This document shows, in pieces, positions 3,472 to 9,814 of a stretch of DNA of 64,000 nucleotides. Source of the stretch: an uncultured Saprospiraceae bacterium. GTDB lineage: Bacteria > Bacteroidota > Bacteroidia > Chitinophagales > Saprospiraceae. The stretch spans positions 62,001 to 126,000 of the forward strand of contig CALSOU010000004.1 in the NCBI GenBank assembly GCA_943788055.1, read 5' to 3'. The position numbers and the translations under genes are program-made. The notes beneath the pieces are model-generated. The model saw only the letters and a list, made by a program, of their open reading frames with translations, ran no database searches and was not told the DNA's origin. Position 1 is the first letter of the stretch. The number at the start of each line of letters is the position of its first letter.

Positions 3472-4116
3472 ATGAAACATCTATTTATTTTTTTATTTGC
3501 TAGTCTATTTATCATCGCTTGTGGAGGTGAACAAAATCGTAAGGTGCAGATTCAAACGGAATATGGAAACATGACTGTTGAATTGTTCAATACAGCACCT
3601 TTACATAGAGATAACTTTGTGAAGTTAGTCAAAGAAGGATTCTATGATGATCTGCTCTTTCATAGAGTAATTAATGGGTTTATGATTCAAGGTGGTGATC
3701 CAGAGTCAAAGGAAGCGCCTCAGGAACAGAATCTAGGTAGTGGAGGACCTGGATATAGAATTAAGGCAGAAATAGGTGAAAAACATTTTAAAGGTAGACT
3801 AGCTGCTGCAAGAACTGGAGACACAGCCAATCCTGAAAGAGAATCATCTGGCTCTCAATTTTATATTGTTGATGGAAGACCGGCAACTGCAAATACAATA
3901 AATCAAATTGCTCAGAGACAAGGGTTTACCTACAGTCAGCAGGATATCGACATATATGAGTCTTTTGGTGGAACTCCCAATTTGGATGGTCAATATTCAG
4001 TTTTTGGACAAGTGGTAGAAGGTTTAGATGTAATCGATAAAATTGCTGCTGTTCAGACTAGACCAGGTGATAGACCTGTGAAAGATGTCAAGATGAAAAT
4101 TGTTTTATTAAACTAG
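3472..4116 (+). CDS. cyclophilin-type peptidyl-prolyl isomerase, lipoprotein
   Basis: 214-residue secreted proline cis-trans isomerase, probably anchored in an envelope membrane. A signal peptide ends in a lipobox with C17 (FIIACGG). The cyclophilin domain covers about 24-213 and keeps the core FHRVINGFMIQGGD with the catalytic arginine R65, then GSGGPGY, SSGSQFYI and YSVFGQVVEG. It sits 14 bases before a second cyclophilin lipoprotein at 4131, and the two share the same internal insert style (NQIAQRQG...YESFGGTP compared with the sister), so they look like a tandem duplication. Likely role: folding of periplasmic or outer-membrane proteins. Confidence 0.94.
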   Translation: MKHLFIFLFASLFIIACGGEQNRKVQIQTEYGNMTVELFNTAPLHRDNFVKLVKEGFYDDLLFHRVINGFMIQGGDPESKEAPQEQNLGSGGPGYRIKAEIGEKHFKGRLAAARTGDTANPERESSGSQFYIVDGRPATANTINQIAQRQGFTYSQQDIDIYESFGGTPNLDGQYSVFGQVVEGLDVIDKIAAVQTRPGDRPVKDVKMKIVLLN

Positions 4117-4130
4117 ATAATCTTCTTTAG

Positions 4131-5027
4131 ATGCATATTGTAAGTGGAATTAAGTTACTTGTCTTAACTACAGTTTCAATTTTCTTGGTTTCCTGTGGAC
4201 CAACTGCTAGGTTTACATATCAACAGTCTGATAAGGTTGCTCCGTCCATTGTGGATTTTCAAAATGACTCTAAAAAAGCTGAAAGCTATACATGGGATTT
4301 TGGAGATGGAAAAACTAGTTCAGATAAAAATCCAAACCACAAGTACTATTTGTCAGGCAAATACGAAGTTGCTTTAACAGCTAAGAAAGGTAAAAAAGAG
4401 AAAGTTACGGTACAAGAAATATTTGTTGATGCACCGGATATCTGCCTTTTAGCACTTGAAACAGATTATGGGACTATCATAATGCATCTATTTGACAATA
4501 CCCCAAAACATAGAGATAATTTCATCAAATTAGCGGAAGAAGGTTTTTTTGATGGTCTACTATTTCACCGCGTGATCGATGGATTTATGATTCAGGGTGG
4601 AGACCCTAATTCAAGAGATGCAAAAGCCGGAAAACCACTTGGTAGTGGTGGTCCTGGATACCAAATTCCTGCGGAATTCAATAAGGAAAATGTACACATT
4701 CGAGGAGCGATTGCAGCGGCAAGGACATCTGATAGTATGAACCCGCAAAAAAAGTCGTCAGGCTCTCAATTCTATATAGTTCACGGTAAGCCACTTGAAG
4801 AAAGTCAATTGAGAAACTTTGAGCTAATGAAAGGCTTGAACTATACCGATGAGCAAAAGCGCATCTTTATGGAAGATGGAGGAACACCTTTTCTTGACAT
4901 GGGATACACTGTTTTTGGTCAAGTGCTAGAAGGTTTTGATGTTATCGAAGATATCGCACAAGCAAAGAAAGATAATAGAGATAGACCTATTGAGGATATC
5001 AAGATGCAAATAAATGTAATAAAATAA
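4131..5027 (+). CDS. PKD domain-cyclophilin fusion lipoprotein (peptidyl-prolyl isomerase)
   Basis: 298-residue lipoprotein. The signal peptide ends at C22 (FLVSCGP). Residues ~26-100 form a PKD-type beta-sandwich with the hallmark WDFGDG at 55-60 and the trailing GKYEVALTA strand. The cyclophilin domain follows from ~104, with FHRVIDGFMIQGGD (R147), GSGGPGY and SSGSQFYIV, ending at the C-terminus. The catalytic core appears intact. PKD domains usually bind proteins or sugars, so this domain may position the isomerase on a surface client; that is inference. The gene lies 14 bases after its sister cyclophilin and two bases before the next start, so the three are probably one transcript. Confidence 0.92.
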   Translation: MHIVSGIKLLVLTTVSIFLVSCGPTARFTYQQSDKVAPSIVDFQNDSKKAESYTWDFGDGKTSSDKNPNHKYYLSGKYEVALTAKKGKKEKVTVQEIFVDAPDICLLALETDYGTIIMHLFDNTPKHRDNFIKLAEEGFFDGLLFHRVIDGFMIQGGDPNSRDAKAGKPLGSGGPGYQIPAEFNKENVHIRGAIAAARTSDSMNPQKKSSGSQFYIVHGKPLEESQLRNFELMKGLNYTDEQKRIFMEDGGTPFLDMGYTVFGQVLEGFDVIEDIAQAKKDNRDRPIEDIKMQINVIK

Positions 5028-5028
5028 T

Positions 5029-5772
5029 ATGGAGAGAATCTTAGGCATAGATGTGGGCGCAACGGGAATCAAAGGAAATTTGGTAGACCCTGTAAAAGGT
5101 GTTGTCTTGGAAGATAGATATAAACTAAAAACACCCAAGGATTCCACTCCTAAGAATGTTTTAGCAACTGTAAATAGTATCATTGACCACTTTGATTGGC
5201 AAGGACTACCAGTAGGTCTTGGTTTTCCTGCAATCGTTCAACATGGTATTACACGTTCAGCTTCCAACGTTGATAAGAAGTGGTTGGACTTTTCAGCTCA
5301 AGAATTTTTGCAAAAAGGTACAGGTTGTCCACTAACTATGGTGAATGACGCTGATGCAGCTGGACTTGCGGAAATAGTCTTTGGGCAGGGAAAAGGAATT
5401 AAAGGCACTGTCATTCTTCTTACTTTAGGAACAGGTATCGGTTCAGCTATTTTTGTCAATGGTAAATTACTTCCAAATACAGAAATGGGACACCTCAAAT
5501 GGAAGGACAAAGTTCTAGAAAAGTATATGTCCAATAAAGTAAGGGAGATTAATAGCCAATCTTGGAAGACTTGGGGGAAAGAGTTTAGCAAAGGATTGGC
5601 ACATATTGATTTTCTTTTTTCTCCTGATGTAATTATACTTGGGGGTGGAATAAGTAAGAATTTTGATCTTTATAAGAAGTATCTGACTGGTTCAAAGTGC
5701 CCTGTAGTACCTGCCAAAATGCAAAATGATGCTGGTATCATTGGTGCAGCTATGTCTTATATTCAAAAGTAG
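5029..5772 (+). CDS. ppgK: polyphosphate glucokinase-like ROK protein
   Basis: 247-residue ROK-fold kinase that by family would transfer phosphate from polyphosphate (and possibly ATP) to glucose. Phosphate loop DVGATGIK is at 8-15, catalytic Asp in VNDADAAG (D107), and the second nucleotide loop LGTGIGSA at ~133-140. It lacks the HxCxCxxxxC zinc motif seen in the ROK kinase at 1364; its shorter length and the EMGHLKWK segment are typical of polyphosphate glucokinases. The start ATG lies one base after the TAA of the cyclophilin gene, so translation is probably coupled. Confidence 0.9.
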   Translation: MERILGIDVGATGIKGNLVDPVKGVVLEDRYKLKTPKDSTPKNVLATVNSIIDHFDWQGLPVGLGFPAIVQHGITRSASNVDKKWLDFSAQEFLQKGTGCPLTMVNDADAAGLAEIVFGQGKGIKGTVILLTLGTGIGSAIFVNGKLLPNTEMGHLKWKDKVLEKYMSNKVREINSQSWKTWGKEFSKGLAHIDFLFSPDVIILGGGISKNFDLYKKYLTGSKCPVVPAKMQNDAGIIGAAMSYIQK

Positions 5773-6007: not shown

Positions 6008-7456
6008 ATGAATTATAAAACAGAATTTGTTCAACCTAAGTCATTTGAGGCTGAAAATCATTTTTACCCAAAAGCTCTGAATGCAACGATTCACCCCATG
6101 GTAAATTTCTTTCTTAATCTTTCGAAAGATCGAATAATAAATAGGTACTGTCATCTTAATCCAATGGTTAATAAAGAAAAACTTGCTGAAGTTTTGGATT
6201 ATAAGTGCAAGTATTTTCTCTGGGGAGGTGCCGATCTGATCAATTCAACAAAGGCAGGTGGAGATAGACAAATGGTCATTATTGAGAATAATTCTTGTCC
6301 TTCTGGACATAAATCAATGCCTTTGCAGGATGACCATCAAGAGTCAGGTTCATACCTCCATCTAATAGAAAGAACATTTCGAAGAATGCTGCGCCCTAGG
6401 CAGGGTGTCACTGAAATTGCAGGTAAGTTGGGAATGGTATATGACAAAAACTTCATGGAGGTTTCTGGCTATGCTGCTGTGATGGCAGATGTTTTCGAAG
6501 AGGAAGTACTTATGGTGCCATACTTCAACGGTGAAGATAACGCCCATGTTAAGTTTGAAAATGGCATTATGTACGTGTACCATGAGAATGAATGGCATAC
6601 GATGCGTGCGGTGTTTAGATATTTAACTCAAAAGCCTTGGACGAGGTTGCCTTTGGTGAGCAAGACCAGGATTATGAATCCGATAATTGCATGTCTTGCT
6701 GGAGGAAGGAATAAAATGGTGGCTGCAAAAGCATATGATATTTACAATACAGAAATTAAGGAGTTTGGACTGAAGATTAGTACTCCCGAAACTATTTGGG
6801 ACGTAAGCAAAGATGAAATTCCATTGTGGGTCCAAAAGCTGGGAGGTCAAGCTGTAATTAAGATTCCTTATAGCAATGCAGGACAAGGTGTTTATACGAT
6901 CATTAATCAAGATGAACTAGACACTTTTATGGAATTAGATATCAATTATAAGAAGTTCATCGTTCAGAGTCTGATTGGAAACTACAATTGGAGTTCAACA
7001 AGTAGCGAGGGTAAGTACTATCATGTGGGAACAATTCCAACACCCAAAGGGGACACATTTGTAACAGACTTGAGATTGATGGTAAGTTCAACAGAAAATG
7101 GAATCAAACCACTTTGTGTATATGCACGAAGAGCGGCGCGCCCTTTGGCCGATGAAATAGACTCTGGTAGTGACTCATGGAGTATGCTTGGTACAAATCT
7201 TTCTATCAAGGAAGCAGAGAATCAGTGGGGGTCAGATACAAATCGCTTAATGCTGATGGATAGAAGGGACTTCAATAAGTTGGGGCTTGGTCTAGACGAT
7301 ATGATAGAAGCATATATTCAGACGGTTCTTTCTACGATAGCAATAGACAAGATGTGTATTAACCTCTATAATTCCAAGGGCAAGTTTAGACAGCGACTTT
7401 TCAAGTCTCTGAATAATGACAAGACCTTACTAGACGAAATAATGAAATATGACTAA
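6008..7456 (+). CDS. ATP-grasp-like protein of unknown function
   Basis: 482-residue soluble protein. The C-terminal half looks like an ATP-grasp fold: GGQAVIKIPYSNAGQGV (~278-294) resembles the lysine plus glycine-loop strand, KFIVQSLIG the hinge strand, and DLRLMVSS...YARRAARPL the acidic and basic core strands. The N-terminal ~230 residues have no motif I know; NNSCPSGHKSMPL with its Cys/Ser/His is notable. It overlaps the next gene, a GshB-like ATP-grasp ligase, by eight bases, and precedes an AstE-type hydrolase and a DUF2750 gene. It may be one of two ligases acting in succession on an amino-acid or peptide substrate (inference). Family unnamed by me. Confidence 0.7.
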   Translation: MNYKTEFVQPKSFEAENHFYPKALNATIHPMVNFFLNLSKDRIINRYCHLNPMVNKEKLAEVLDYKCKYFLWGGADLINSTKAGGDRQMVIIENNSCPSGHKSMPLQDDHQESGSYLHLIERTFRRMLRPRQGVTEIAGKLGMVYDKNFMEVSGYAAVMADVFEEEVLMVPYFNGEDNAHVKFENGIMYVYHENEWHTMRAVFRYLTQKPWTRLPLVSKTRIMNPIIACLAGGRNKMVAAKAYDIYNTEIKEFGLKISTPETIWDVSKDEIPLWVQKLGGQAVIKIPYSNAGQGVYTIINQDELDTFMELDINYKKFIVQSLIGNYNWSSTSSEGKYYHVGTIPTPKGDTFVTDLRLMVSSTENGIKPLCVYARRAARPLADEIDSGSDSWSMLGTNLSIKEAENQWGSDTNRLMLMDRRDFNKLGLGLDDMIEAYIQTVLSTIAIDKMCINLYNSKGKFRQRLFKSLNNDKTLLDEIMKYD

Positions 7457-8456
7457 GGCACTCAAGTTCTTAGTTCTCACGGACCACAGTGGTCACAGTG
7501 AACACAATTCGATATATCCTCTCATTAGAGAATTAGTTAAACATCCTCAAATTCATTCTGTTGACATTGCGAGTCGAGGAGTCTTTGAAAATGATAAATT
7601 CTTTAAAAACAAGAAATTAGATGGTCTACACGTAGTAGCCGTGGATACAGATTTTCAATATCAAGAATCTGGCGTACAGTTTTCGCAAGCTTTGAAAAAA
7701 GTAGACTATAAGAGTTATGATGCAGTCTGGCTGAGACTTCCTCGTCCAGTTGAAGATGATTTTCTACTGTGGTTGGAAGATGAAGTAGACGGTGTGATCT
7801 TCAATCGTCCTCGAGGAATTCTTGAAACGAGTAATAAATCTTTTTTACTCGAGATTCAGAAAGTCTGTCCACCTATCAAGAAAGTACATACTGTTGAAGA
7901 AGTTCTGTCTTTCGCTCTGCAAATGGACATAGTACTAAAGCCACTTAAGGAATATGGAGGGAGAGGTCTTATTAAGATATCGGATGGTATGGTCGATGAT
8001 GGTAAAGAAATTCACAATGCAAAGGCTTATTTAGTACAGCTTGAACCAGCACTTCGTCGTGATGGGTATCTAGCTATGAAGTTTCTCAAAAATGTTTCCA
8101 AAGGAGACAAAAGAATACTCGTTGTCAATGGTGAATTACTTGCTGCATCTTTACGATTACCAGCAGAAGGCTCTTGGTTGTGTAATGTTGCACAGGGAGG
8201 GACATCAGTTGCAACAGAAGTGACGAATGAAGAGAGAGAGATTATTGAATTTATCAGCCCAATTTTAACGGAGAAAGGTATAGTCATGTTTGGCGCTGAT
8301 ACTTTGACCGATGACGACGGAAAACGTGTGCTTTCTGAAGTTAATACATTAAGTATTGGTGGATTTCCTCATGCAGAAGCTCAAACAGGGAAACCCATCA
8401 TTTCAATCACAATTCAAAAGATAATTGACTATGTCCGTACTAGGATCGATGAATAA
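7449..8456 (+). CDS. glutathione synthetase-like / RimK-type ATP-grasp ligase
   Basis: 335-residue ATP-grasp carboxylate-amine ligase. ATP-binding lysine and loop are seen in DIVLKPLKEYGGRGLIKI (~157-174); PAEGSWLCNVAQGGTS (~238-253) matches the GshB-type glycine/arginine segment; MFGADTL and SEVNTLSIGG supply the acidic and Asn metal ligands near the C-terminus. Family members join an amino group to a carboxylate with ATP (glutathione synthesis, or glutamate addition). No GshA is adjacent, so ordinary glutathione synthesis cannot be assumed. It overlaps the upstream gene by eight bases and the downstream hydrolase gene by eight. Confidence 0.85.
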   Translation: MTKALKFLVLTDHSGHSEHNSIYPLIRELVKHPQIHSVDIASRGVFENDKFFKNKKLDGLHVVAVDTDFQYQESGVQFSQALKKVDYKSYDAVWLRLPRPVEDDFLLWLEDEVDGVIFNRPRGILETSNKSFLLEIQKVCPPIKKVHTVEEVLSFALQMDIVLKPLKEYGGRGLIKISDGMVDDGKEIHNAKAYLVQLEPALRRDGYLAMKFLKNVSKGDKRILVVNGELLAASLRLPAEGSWLCNVAQGGTSVATEVTNEEREIIEFISPILTEKGIVMFGADTLTDDDGKRVLSEVNTLSIGGFPHAEAQTGKPIISITIQKIIDYVRTRIDE

Positions 8457-9411
8457 TATCCCGTTGATAAAGGAATTTAATATTGAAGAAGTCAAACCTG
8501 GCACCCGCGCTAATTTTTGGCTTCACTTGATTAGTGACGGTTTTGGGAGCCCTATCAGCATTCCAGTAATTGTATTACGTGGAAAGCATGACGGTCCTGT
8601 TTTGGGTTTAACAGCTGCAGTACATGGAAATGAACTGAATGGCATCTCTGTCATACAGCGCCTTTGTGGAGAGATTGATGTGGAAGAACTCAGAGGAAGC
8701 ATAGTAGCAGTGCCAGTTGTTAATGTACCCTCATTTATGCGTAAAAAGCGCAGATTTAACGATGGTGTAGATCTAAATCACATTATGCCAGGACGAAAGG
8801 ATGGTAATGTTAGTCAGGTTTATGCCTATCGTTTTATCGACAGGATTGCGAAGAAATTTGATTTCTTACTTGATCTACACACAGCCAGTTTTGGACGAGT
8901 CAATAGCTACTACGTCCGTGCAGACTTGTCTAGTGATGTGACAAAGGATCTAGCAATACTCCAGAATGCTGATATTATAGTTCATAATCCTCCTTCTGAC
9001 GGAACTTTACGTGGGGCTGCCGATGAAATGGGAATTCCTGCTATTACAGTTGAAGTTGGGAACCCTAATACCTTTCAGAAACGTCTCATCCGTAGTGGTG
9101 TAACTGGTATCCATAATACGCTTTGCTATCTTAACATGATCGATGATGAGATCGTGAAAGAGGAAAAAAATACAGTTCTGTGTGATTCTAGTTTTTGGAT
9201 GTATACTGACAAGGGAGGACTTTTGACTGTTCATACTGAATTACGAGATGTCGTCGAGAAAGGCGAAGTTATAGCGACATTGAGAAATGTTTTTGGAGAT
9301 AAGATTACTGAATATGTAGCAGAAGAATCTGGTATAGTGATAGGTAAAAGTGTTTCACCAGTAAATCAGACGGGAGGAAGAATCTTACATATGGGTCGAA
9401 TAAAAAAATAA
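8449..9411 (+). CDS. succinylglutamate desuccinylase/aspartoacylase-family zinc hydrolase
   Basis: 320-residue zinc-dependent amidohydrolase of the M14-like AstE/AspA family. Zinc ligands are H59 and E62 (AAVHGNE) and H144 (DLHTASFG); the substrate-binding VDLNHIMPG and the later glutamate in TVEVGNP are also present. A C-terminal beta-barrel domain (~235-320) resembles a barrel-sandwich hybrid. I chose ATG 8449, which overlaps the upstream stop (ATGAATAA) and has AGGA five bases upstream; ATG 8431 and TTG 8425 are alternatives. Placement behind a GshB/RimK-like ligase suggests it trims or recycles the ligase product, a pairing seen elsewhere for RimK-type ligases. Confidence 0.9.
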   Translation: MNNIPLIKEFNIEEVKPGTRANFWLHLISDGFGSPISIPVIVLRGKHDGPVLGLTAAVHGNELNGISVIQRLCGEIDVEELRGSIVAVPVVNVPSFMRKKRRFNDGVDLNHIMPGRKDGNVSQVYAYRFIDRIAKKFDFLLDLHTASFGRVNSYYVRADLSSDVTKDLAILQNADIIVHNPPSDGTLRGAADEMGIPAITVEVGNPNTFQKRLIRSGVTGIHNTLCYLNMIDDEIVKEEKNTVLCDSSFWMYTDKGGLLTVHTELRDVVEKGEVIATLRNVFGDKITEYVAEESGIVIGKSVSPVNQTGGRILHMGRIKK

Positions 9412-9418
9412 TTAAGTA

Positions 9419-9814
9419 ATGACAAAACTATCTGACAACGAGATTAAGCGTACCACTAAGTTGTTACCCGAAAAGCGCTACGCATATTCTCTAGAAAAGA
9501 TTATTAAGAATCAGTTCGTATATGTTCTTGAACGGGAAGTAAATGGCTACGCTTCTTCCGAAATTGAAGGAAATCGATTAGTTGCAATTTGGCCATCTAA
9601 AGAGTATGCCACTTTAAATGCTCGAGCAGATTGGTCGGACTTTCGTCCAAAAGAAATAGCTCTTGCATCAATCGAGCCTTTGCTCGAAGCTATAGAATCT
9701 GAAGGTTGGAATCTGGATGTCTTCCCAAATGGTGCAAAAACTGGTCAAGTGGTAACTGTCGATGAGTTCATCAACGATCTGAATGCTATGGTAAATAACA
9801 CTGTTGAAGTGTAA
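9419..9814 (+). CDS. DUF2750 family protein
   Basis: 131-residue small soluble protein. The arrangement RYAYSLEKI...ERE..GYASSEIEGNRLVAIWPSKEYA...EIALASIEPLLEAIESEGW matches my memory of the uncharacterised DUF2750 family. No catalytic motif is obvious. It starts seven bases after the stop of the zinc hydrolase, so it is probably the last gene of the 6008-9814 operon. DUF2750 proteins have been linked by some to immunity-like or stress functions, but I see nothing here to support a role. Confidence 0.75.
   Translation: MTKLSDNEIKRTTKLLPEKRYAYSLEKIIKNQFVYVLEREVNGYASSEIEGNRLVAIWPSKEYATLNARADWSDFRPKEIALASIEPLLEAIESEGWNLDVFPNGAKTGQVVTVDEFINDLNAMVNNTVEV

Follow-up and report, generated by a model that had tools for sequence, protein, structure and literature searches.

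The closest described counterparts of the genes reported here are YgiC, YjfC and the glutathionylspermidine synthetase/amidase (GspSA) of Escherichia coli. One paper names YgiC and YjfC peptidylpolyamine synthetases, citing a study whose title gives peptide-spermidine ligase activity, and describes amides of agmatine, putrescine or cadaverine as the end products of the E-64 pathway (PMC12568646). A second paper reports that homologues of deoxyhypusine synthase act as homospermidine synthases in Pelagibacter and that, in beta-Proteobacteria and a phage, genes for homospermidine synthase and for glutathionylspermidine synthetase lie in shared clusters (PMC9992855). In this work we describe three adjoining genes, here called A, B and C, from an uncultured Saprospiraceae bacterium (GenBank assembly GCA_943788055.1, contig CALSOU010000004.1, positions 62,001 to 126,000); this stretch of 64,000 nucleotides is referred to as the window. 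A and B encode probable ATP-grasp-type ligases and C encodes a probable zinc hydrolase of AstE/aspartoacylase type. What is new is that in many relatives the three genes lie inside a polyamine operon, with genes for a pyridoxal-phosphate (PLP) decarboxylase, an agmatinase and a deoxyhypusine-synthase-like protein (DHS), and that they do so in several gene orders. Our literature search returned no paper joining Saprospiraceae with homospermidine, and none combining glutathionylspermidine synthetase, ATP-grasp, gene cluster and polyamine.

A conserved three-gene unit

The locus holds four co-directional open reading frames (ORFs), which an initial annotation made from the sequence alone had presented as one ligase/deacylase cluster. 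The features are listed below in window coordinates.

6008-7456, + strand: gene A, 482-residue ATP-grasp-type ligase of an unnamed family, with a predicted shape like glutathione synthetase and glutathionylspermidine synthetase (ORF, AlphaFold model, fold matches)
6284-6292, + strand: gene A, E93-N94-N95; E93 and N95 are invariant in 56 A sequences
6860-6889, + strand: gene A, K285...G292-Q293-G294, invariant lysine and glycine-rich loop, probable ATP-binding elements judging from the ATP-grasp fold
7067-7075, + strand: gene A, D354-x-R356, invariant pair, probable phosphate or metal contacts judging from the fold
7449-8456, + strand: gene B, 335-residue GshB-like ATP-grasp ligase (PF02955, E 3.1e-26; PF08443, E 2.4e-07)
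8449-9411, + strand: gene C, AstE/aspartoacylase-type zinc hydrolase (PF24827, E 6.2e-34; start read from the sequence)
9419-9814, + strand: gene D, DUF2750 (PF11042, E 4.8e-16), adjoining the module and outside the conserved unit

All four ORFs are present as first described. Genes A and B overlap by eight bases (A ends at 7456 and the ATG of B is at 7449), and so do B and C provided that ATG 8449, with AGGA immediately 5′ of it, is the start of C; the mechanical ORF of C begins at TTG 8425. Gene D starts eight bases past the final base of C (9411 to 9419).

Which of these genes belong together? For co-occurrence we used 100 genomes, namely the window's own and relatives, uncorrected for phylogeny, with 'strong' cut-offs (E<1e-60 for B, E<1e-80 for C) that were set after a clear gap in the match scores had been noticed. 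For gene neighbourhoods we used a named-genome set, the best 80 of 461 confirmed candidate loci with A on titled genome contigs. Homologues of A occur in 36 of the 100 genomes. Strong B matches were found in 31 of these 36 genomes versus 1 of the 64 without A (Fisher p 1.7e-19), and strong C matches in 33 versus 2 (p 1.3e-20). The sole genome with a strong B and no A (G011) has B at the extreme start of a contig, where A may have been cut off. In the named-genome set B lies near A in 71 loci and C in 72, with direct succession from A to B in 65 and from B to C in 64 (median gaps of -4 and -20 bases, from mechanical ORF starts). DUF2750 was found near A in none of these 80 loci and in none of 20 extended loci of relatives, and was ruled out as a fourth component. 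Some loci (L144, L146 and L148) have A and C with no B alongside, and their genomes (G184, G205 and G258) carry only weak B matches. Because B and C accompany A, DUF2750 is not found near it in relatives, and A-C loci exist, the conserved unit is A-B-C and its minimal form is A-C. The cluster of the initial annotation therefore stands for its first three genes and falls for its fourth. That A-B-C is a real ligase/hydrolase module is a claim that we hold with more confidence than the chemistry proposed for it below.

Beyond the window's family the distribution of A is patchy, with homologues in 9 of 392 sampled Bacteroidota genomes (the window's own included). Loci with A also occur in named strains of Lewinella, Neolewinella, Aureispira and Tenacibaculum. 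A search of plasmids for A found none, and a search of viral contigs gave 47 pattern stretches and no true relative. One A-C pair (L092), on a contig labelled Alcanivoracaceae, groups with Tenacibaculum (support 99) and is possibly mis-binned.

Families of genes B and C

Profile searches agree with what had been read by eye, i.e. that B is a GshB/RimK-like ATP-grasp protein, C is of AstE type and D is DUF2750. Gene B scores 92.3 bits against a cut-off of 23 for GSH-S_ATP (PF02955) and 31 against 21 for the RimK Pfam domain (PF08443). Its nearest NCBIfam family is glutathione synthase (E 2.1e-34), yet it stays far under the curated cut-offs, failing both GshB equivalogs (NF003573, 118.8 versus 272; TIGR01380, 107.8 versus 299.05) as well as RimK (TIGR00768, 45.5 versus 143.4). 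Gene C reaches 117.7 bits against a cut-off of 25 for AstE_AspA_cat (PF24827); DoeB, the nearest NCBIfam family, is under its cut-off (90.6 versus 402.7), and C also fails the equivalogs for AstE (21.6 versus 305.65) and aspartoacylase (19.7 versus 180).

Alignments were limited to sequences with 38% identity or more to the window's protein over no less than 80% of its length. In the 92-row alignment of B, the residues K164, D220-K221-R222 and E297-x-N299 are present in at least 95% of rows. The same holds in the 93-row alignment of C for H67-x-x-E70, H152 and E210 (counted from TTG 8425), of which H67, E70 and H152 are presumably the zinc ligands.

The window's genome has a second pair of this general kind, at L131:3860-5749 (G000:C9:278000-289000), where a RimK gene (TIGR00768, 229.5 versus 143.4) is followed by an AstE-like hydrolase gene whose product is about 27% identical to C. 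Neighbouring weak B and C matches are also found in further relatives, e.g. G001:C212, G005:C60 and G024:C56.

Family and fold of gene A

Gene A falls into no family in our Pfam and NCBIfam searches, yet within the window's family it accompanies B and C. Its sequence has no Pfam match at E<=1, and NCBIfam gives just a weak RimK-family match (E 0.12). A Pfam scan of 24 A members produced scattered weak matches, the best at 0.013, to nine families at E<=1; neither the glutathionylspermidine synthase family nor PF08886, a GshA type, is among them. PDB sequence searches with A, as a single sequence or as a profile, found no relative, and a match at 0.46 to a short 'mkDPBB_sym2' chain was disregarded.

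A first AlphaFold model of A, from 24 sequences, reached a predicted local distance difference test score (pLDDT) of 79.3, and a second (AF2) model, from 56 sequences, reached a pLDDT of 89.1 with a predicted template-modelling score (pTM) of 0.92. Foldseek gave 48 matches at E<=0.001 to the model of A, among them yeast glutathione synthase (2.2e-09), the putative glutathionylspermidine synthase 3n6x (8.8e-09) and Cp1B of the E-64 pathway (9cjn, 2.4e-08); plant and human glutathione synthetases also match. A fold comparison with VIA-align listed 50 matches. The top one among these is 3k1t, a putative gamma-glutamylcysteine synthetase (Z 17.9, 4.0 Å, 331 residues, 11% identity), which we take to be a member of PF08886. 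Below it among the matches listed come ArgX (14.0), LysX (13.9) and homoglutathione synthetase (13.8), and the same comparison includes the polyamine-type ligases YjfC (13.6), YgiC (13.2) and E. coli GspSA (13.0), together with D-Ala-D-Ala ligase (13.5) and human glutathione synthetase (13.0). Fold matches cover residues 14-454 of the model. Among the fold relatives whose alignment runs from residue 14 to around 420, several are polyamine ligases, either known or described as such.

An ATP-grasp fold for gene A, proposed by eye in the initial annotation, is thus a well-supported prediction. Judging from the models, the fold alone does not pick the substrate, because glutathione synthetases score like polyamine ligases. 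Across the 56 A sequences E93, N95, K285, G292-G294, D354, R356 and D447 are invariant, with probable roles assigned from the fold; we take E93-x-N95 to resemble the E-x-N metal site of glutathione synthetases.

Linkage to polyamine genes

The neighbours of A were found by clustering the 20 extended loci and scanning one sequence per family. Three families of polyamine genes emerged. The first is a PLP decarboxylase, here called ADC, that is nearest to arginine decarboxylase and under its cut-off (176.7 versus 369). The second is an agmatinase (AGM) above its cut-off (220.5 versus 174.3). The third is DHS, which has the DS domain (143.6 versus 27, in one sequence, L035); this same sequence fails the NCBIfam 'homospermidine biosynthesis protein' (111.8 versus 450), and its function is therefore putative.

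A tblastn search of the 80 named-genome loci, which accepted matches at any position in the locus and made no correction for contigs that end early, found ADC in 32 of them, agmatinase in 26 and DHS in 23. By an ORF-based count these genes are almost always on the strand of A (ADC 31/32, agmatinase 25/26, DHS 22/22). The order of the genes varies: seven loci read A-B-C-Xs-ADC-AGM-DHS, seven A-B-C-ADC-AGM-DHS-Xs, three A-ADC-AGM-DHS-Xs-B-C and one ADC-AGM-DHS-A-B-C, with others besides, and 29 of the 80 have A-B-C alone. Outside the window's family, ADC-AGM-DHS-Xs and A-C occur together in a genome of the same class (family f25, L144), and A-C occurs with ADC-AGM in one from another class (f53, L146). 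Because the gene order varies, these arrangements suggest repeated selection for the proximity of A-B-C and the polyamine genes.

The frequent neighbour Xs is a small acidic protein of 95-147 residues, found in 24 of the 80 loci. Its co-occurrence with A is weak over the 100 genomes (p 0.03) and was not seen inside the window's family (p 0.30), and Xs is also present in the polyamine operon of a genome that lacks A (L138 of G019). The window's genome has an Xs homologue far from the cluster, at G000:C2:200737-201057, where the match holds one TAA.

A tree of A was made from 111 loci, reduced to 105 rows by dropping those under 440 residues and those sharing their last 430 residues. Of these rows 38 are linked to polyamine genes, 37 are unlinked although both of their flanks reach 5 kb or more, and 30 are undetermined; one locus (L127) was relabelled for this purpose, its lone 'agmatinase' being a 29% match on the opposite strand. 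Linkage changes at least 12 times on the tree, and five of these changes are forced by well-supported branches. The window's A is closest to linked sequences, its exact place being weakly supported.

Proximity within genomes points the same way. ADC lies within 10 kb of A in 10 of the 33 genomes that have both, where 0.13 would be expected at random, and DHS in 7 of 10, where 0.04 would be expected; these Poisson expectations ignore shared ancestry and are therefore optimistic. Within the window's family ADC was found in 30 of 33 genomes with A versus 16 of 28 without it (p 0.003), and in 29 of 32 versus 14 of 21 when only family genomes at least 90% complete are considered (p 0.04). These co-occurrence counts include an ADC fragment of 31 residues at a contig end (G042) and leave out a weak ADC match (G002) and weak DHS matches (G065, G080 and G093, 26-30% identity).

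One Flavobacteriales contig (L096) has A-C, MscS and CorA, then a RimK-like/AstE-like pair directly 5′ of ADC-AGM and a partial DHS. It looks as if a paralogous pair had joined the same operon.

Elsewhere in the window, two neighbouring genes for cyclophilin-type peptidyl-prolyl isomerases, the second with a PKD domain, lie at 3472-5024, and a ROK-family gene at 5029-5772 adjoins this pair.

Proposed mechanism and alternatives

Because A-B-C recurs beside polyamine biosynthesis genes, we propose that it is a conjugate-and-release module, in which a polyamine or agmatine is joined to an amino acid or peptide and later set free. This is the reading that we favour, tentatively and short of calling it probable. 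Gene A would phosphorylate an amino acid or short peptide at its carboxylate and join it to an amine of putrescine, homospermidine or agmatine. Gene B, missing from some lineages that keep A and C, would make or extend the peptide part. Gene C would act as a zinc amidohydrolase that cuts the amide and gives back the free polyamine. In hand are a three-gene module, conserved catalytic-type residues, the predicted ATP-grasp fold of A and the repeated linkage to polyamine genes; from these we infer both partners (a polyamine on the amine side, an amino acid or peptide on the acyl side), the order and direction of the reactions, and the hydrolytic role of C. The initial annotation had suggested a pathway that builds and trims an amino-acid or peptide conjugate. 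The two ligase types, the zinc-hydrolase type and their conserved catalytic-type residues fit this well; its fourth gene drops out, and a polyamine, which is not visible in the window, is the likely second partner to be added.

Several results weigh against a polyamine link. Neither ADC nor DHS has a match in the genome of the window itself, which is 96.85% complete and consists of 13 contigs. The sole PF02784 match in that genome is a diaminopimelate-decarboxylase-like gene (L161:1393-2637, around G000:C1:226671-227396), the frame of which is broken by one TGA and one TAA, so that it is either a broken gene or the product of assembly errors. Two further genomes (G037 and G052) carry A without ADC. 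Across the 100 genomes DHS is no commoner with A than without it (10/36 versus 27/64, p 0.20), and the co-occurrence of ADC with A is significant only within the family (33/36 versus 49/64 overall, p 0.10). Linkage is far from universal, as 37 of the 75 judged tree rows are unlinked, and 23 of the 33 genomes with both A and ADC have no ADC linkage, some of these on short contigs. The best fold match of A is a GshA-type enzyme rather than a polyamine ligase, and the other non-polyamine ligases, e.g. ArgX, homoglutathione synthetase, D-Ala-D-Ala ligase and human glutathione synthetase, score level with the polyamine ligases. The window's organism may import polyamines or have lost the pathway; alternatively, the module may work without polyamines.

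The alternative that survives best, although we consider it unlikely, is that A is a gamma-glutamyl ligase of GshA type and B a GshB-type enzyme adding the last residue, so that together they make a glutathione-like tripeptide or other low-molecular-weight thiol that C degrades, the nearness to polyamine genes reflecting shared stress regulation. The clearest fold match of A is to 3k1t (Z 17.9 versus 14.0 for the next among the matches listed), and the best families of B are glutathione synthetases. However, B reaches less than half of the GshB cut-off, there are loci with A and C and no adjoining B, in genomes with just weak B matches, and the polyamine linkage is left unexplained. The initial annotation had considered plain glutathione synthesis unlikely because GshA was missing. 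This argument is weak, because the best fold match of A is itself a putative gamma-glutamylcysteine synthetase. A PF08886 search of the window's genome for GshA gave no match, but it gave none in 14 control genomes either, and other GshA types were not searched.

Less likely again, and in our view improbable, is that the polyamine neighbourhood is an inherited coincidence within the Saprospiraceae that is silent on the substrate, with A-B-C making an unrelated amino-acid conjugate. Such a coincidence would sit well with a window genome that has neither ADC nor DHS and with the lack of co-occurrence between DHS and A. It sits poorly with the several gene orders, with the loci found in other families and in a different class, and with the at least five forced linkage changes on the tree of A.

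Decidedly improbable is that the three genes make and break an osmolyte or ion-balancing peptide, with mechanosensitive channels, CorA and sodium/proton exchangers as the true partners. MscS-type channels occur in 17 of the 80 loci (L051-L130), CorA in 8, the universal stress protein (Usp) in 7 and sodium/proton exchangers in 5, by cluster-based counts with domains checked on one representative per cluster. These counts take in the whole locus, often come from a few related loci and have no background rate to set them against, and polyamine genes are commoner (ADC in 32/80).

We give still less weight to a RimK-like scheme, in which A and B modify a protein, possibly Xs, and C removes the modification. 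The RimK gene beside an AstE-like hydrolase gene in the window's genome and the presence of the acidic Xs in so many loci would suit this, but B is well under the RimK cut-off, Xs lies apart from the module in the window's genome and also occurs in the polyamine operon of a genome without A, and A resembles small-molecule ligases over most of its length. The LysW amino-carrier system carries out carrier-bound chemistry that a related alternative would recall, namely a bacterial polyaminylation cycle in which carboxylates of Xs are loaded with agmatine, putrescine or homospermidine by A and B and unloaded by C; this we regard as highly improbable.

If A is a polyamine ligase, it adds to the known ones a group with no detectable sequence kinship to them. 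The module would then point to an unknown polyamine conjugate, and an uninformative gene neighbourhood would become a directly testable pathway.

Comparison with known systems

As a conjugate-and-release module, A-B-C would follow the logic of the glutathionylspermidine synthetase/amidase, with A outside that sequence family. The likeness to YgiC, YjfC and GspSA lies in a predicted fold that A shares with them along most of the chain, in the pairing of a synthetase with an amide-cleaving enzyme and in the polyamine gene context. The differences are that none of the 24 scanned A members has a glutathionylspermidine-synthase Pfam match, that the hydrolase is a zinc enzyme of AstE type rather than the amidase domain of GspSA, that there is an extra GshB-like ligase, and that the substrate proposed here is inferred.

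Methylobacillus flagellatus 3k1t, the putative ATP-grasp gamma-glutamylcysteine synthetase, is the best fold match of A over 331 residues; however, the two share just 11% identity, PF08886 is not matched by the 24 A members, and A has a polyamine gene context. GshB shares the GSH-S_ATP domain with B, which nevertheless scores well below the equivalog cut-off. RimK-AstE pairs, such as the one in the window's genome, and the Pseudomonas RimK-RimB pair likewise place an ATP-grasp ligase beside a hydrolase; here, B is below the RimK cut-off, C is only distantly similar to the hydrolase of L131, and such pairs have no counterpart of A.

Cp1B matches A in Foldseek, but it is fungal, and in its pathway the amine is joined by an enzyme of another class and not by Cp1B. 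Finally, the clusters of homospermidine synthase and glutathionylspermidine synthetase (PMC9992855) resemble the loci reported here in that a polyamine synthase gene adjoins a ligase gene. They differ in that here the DHS-like gene comes with ADC and agmatinase, and the ligase belongs to another sequence family.

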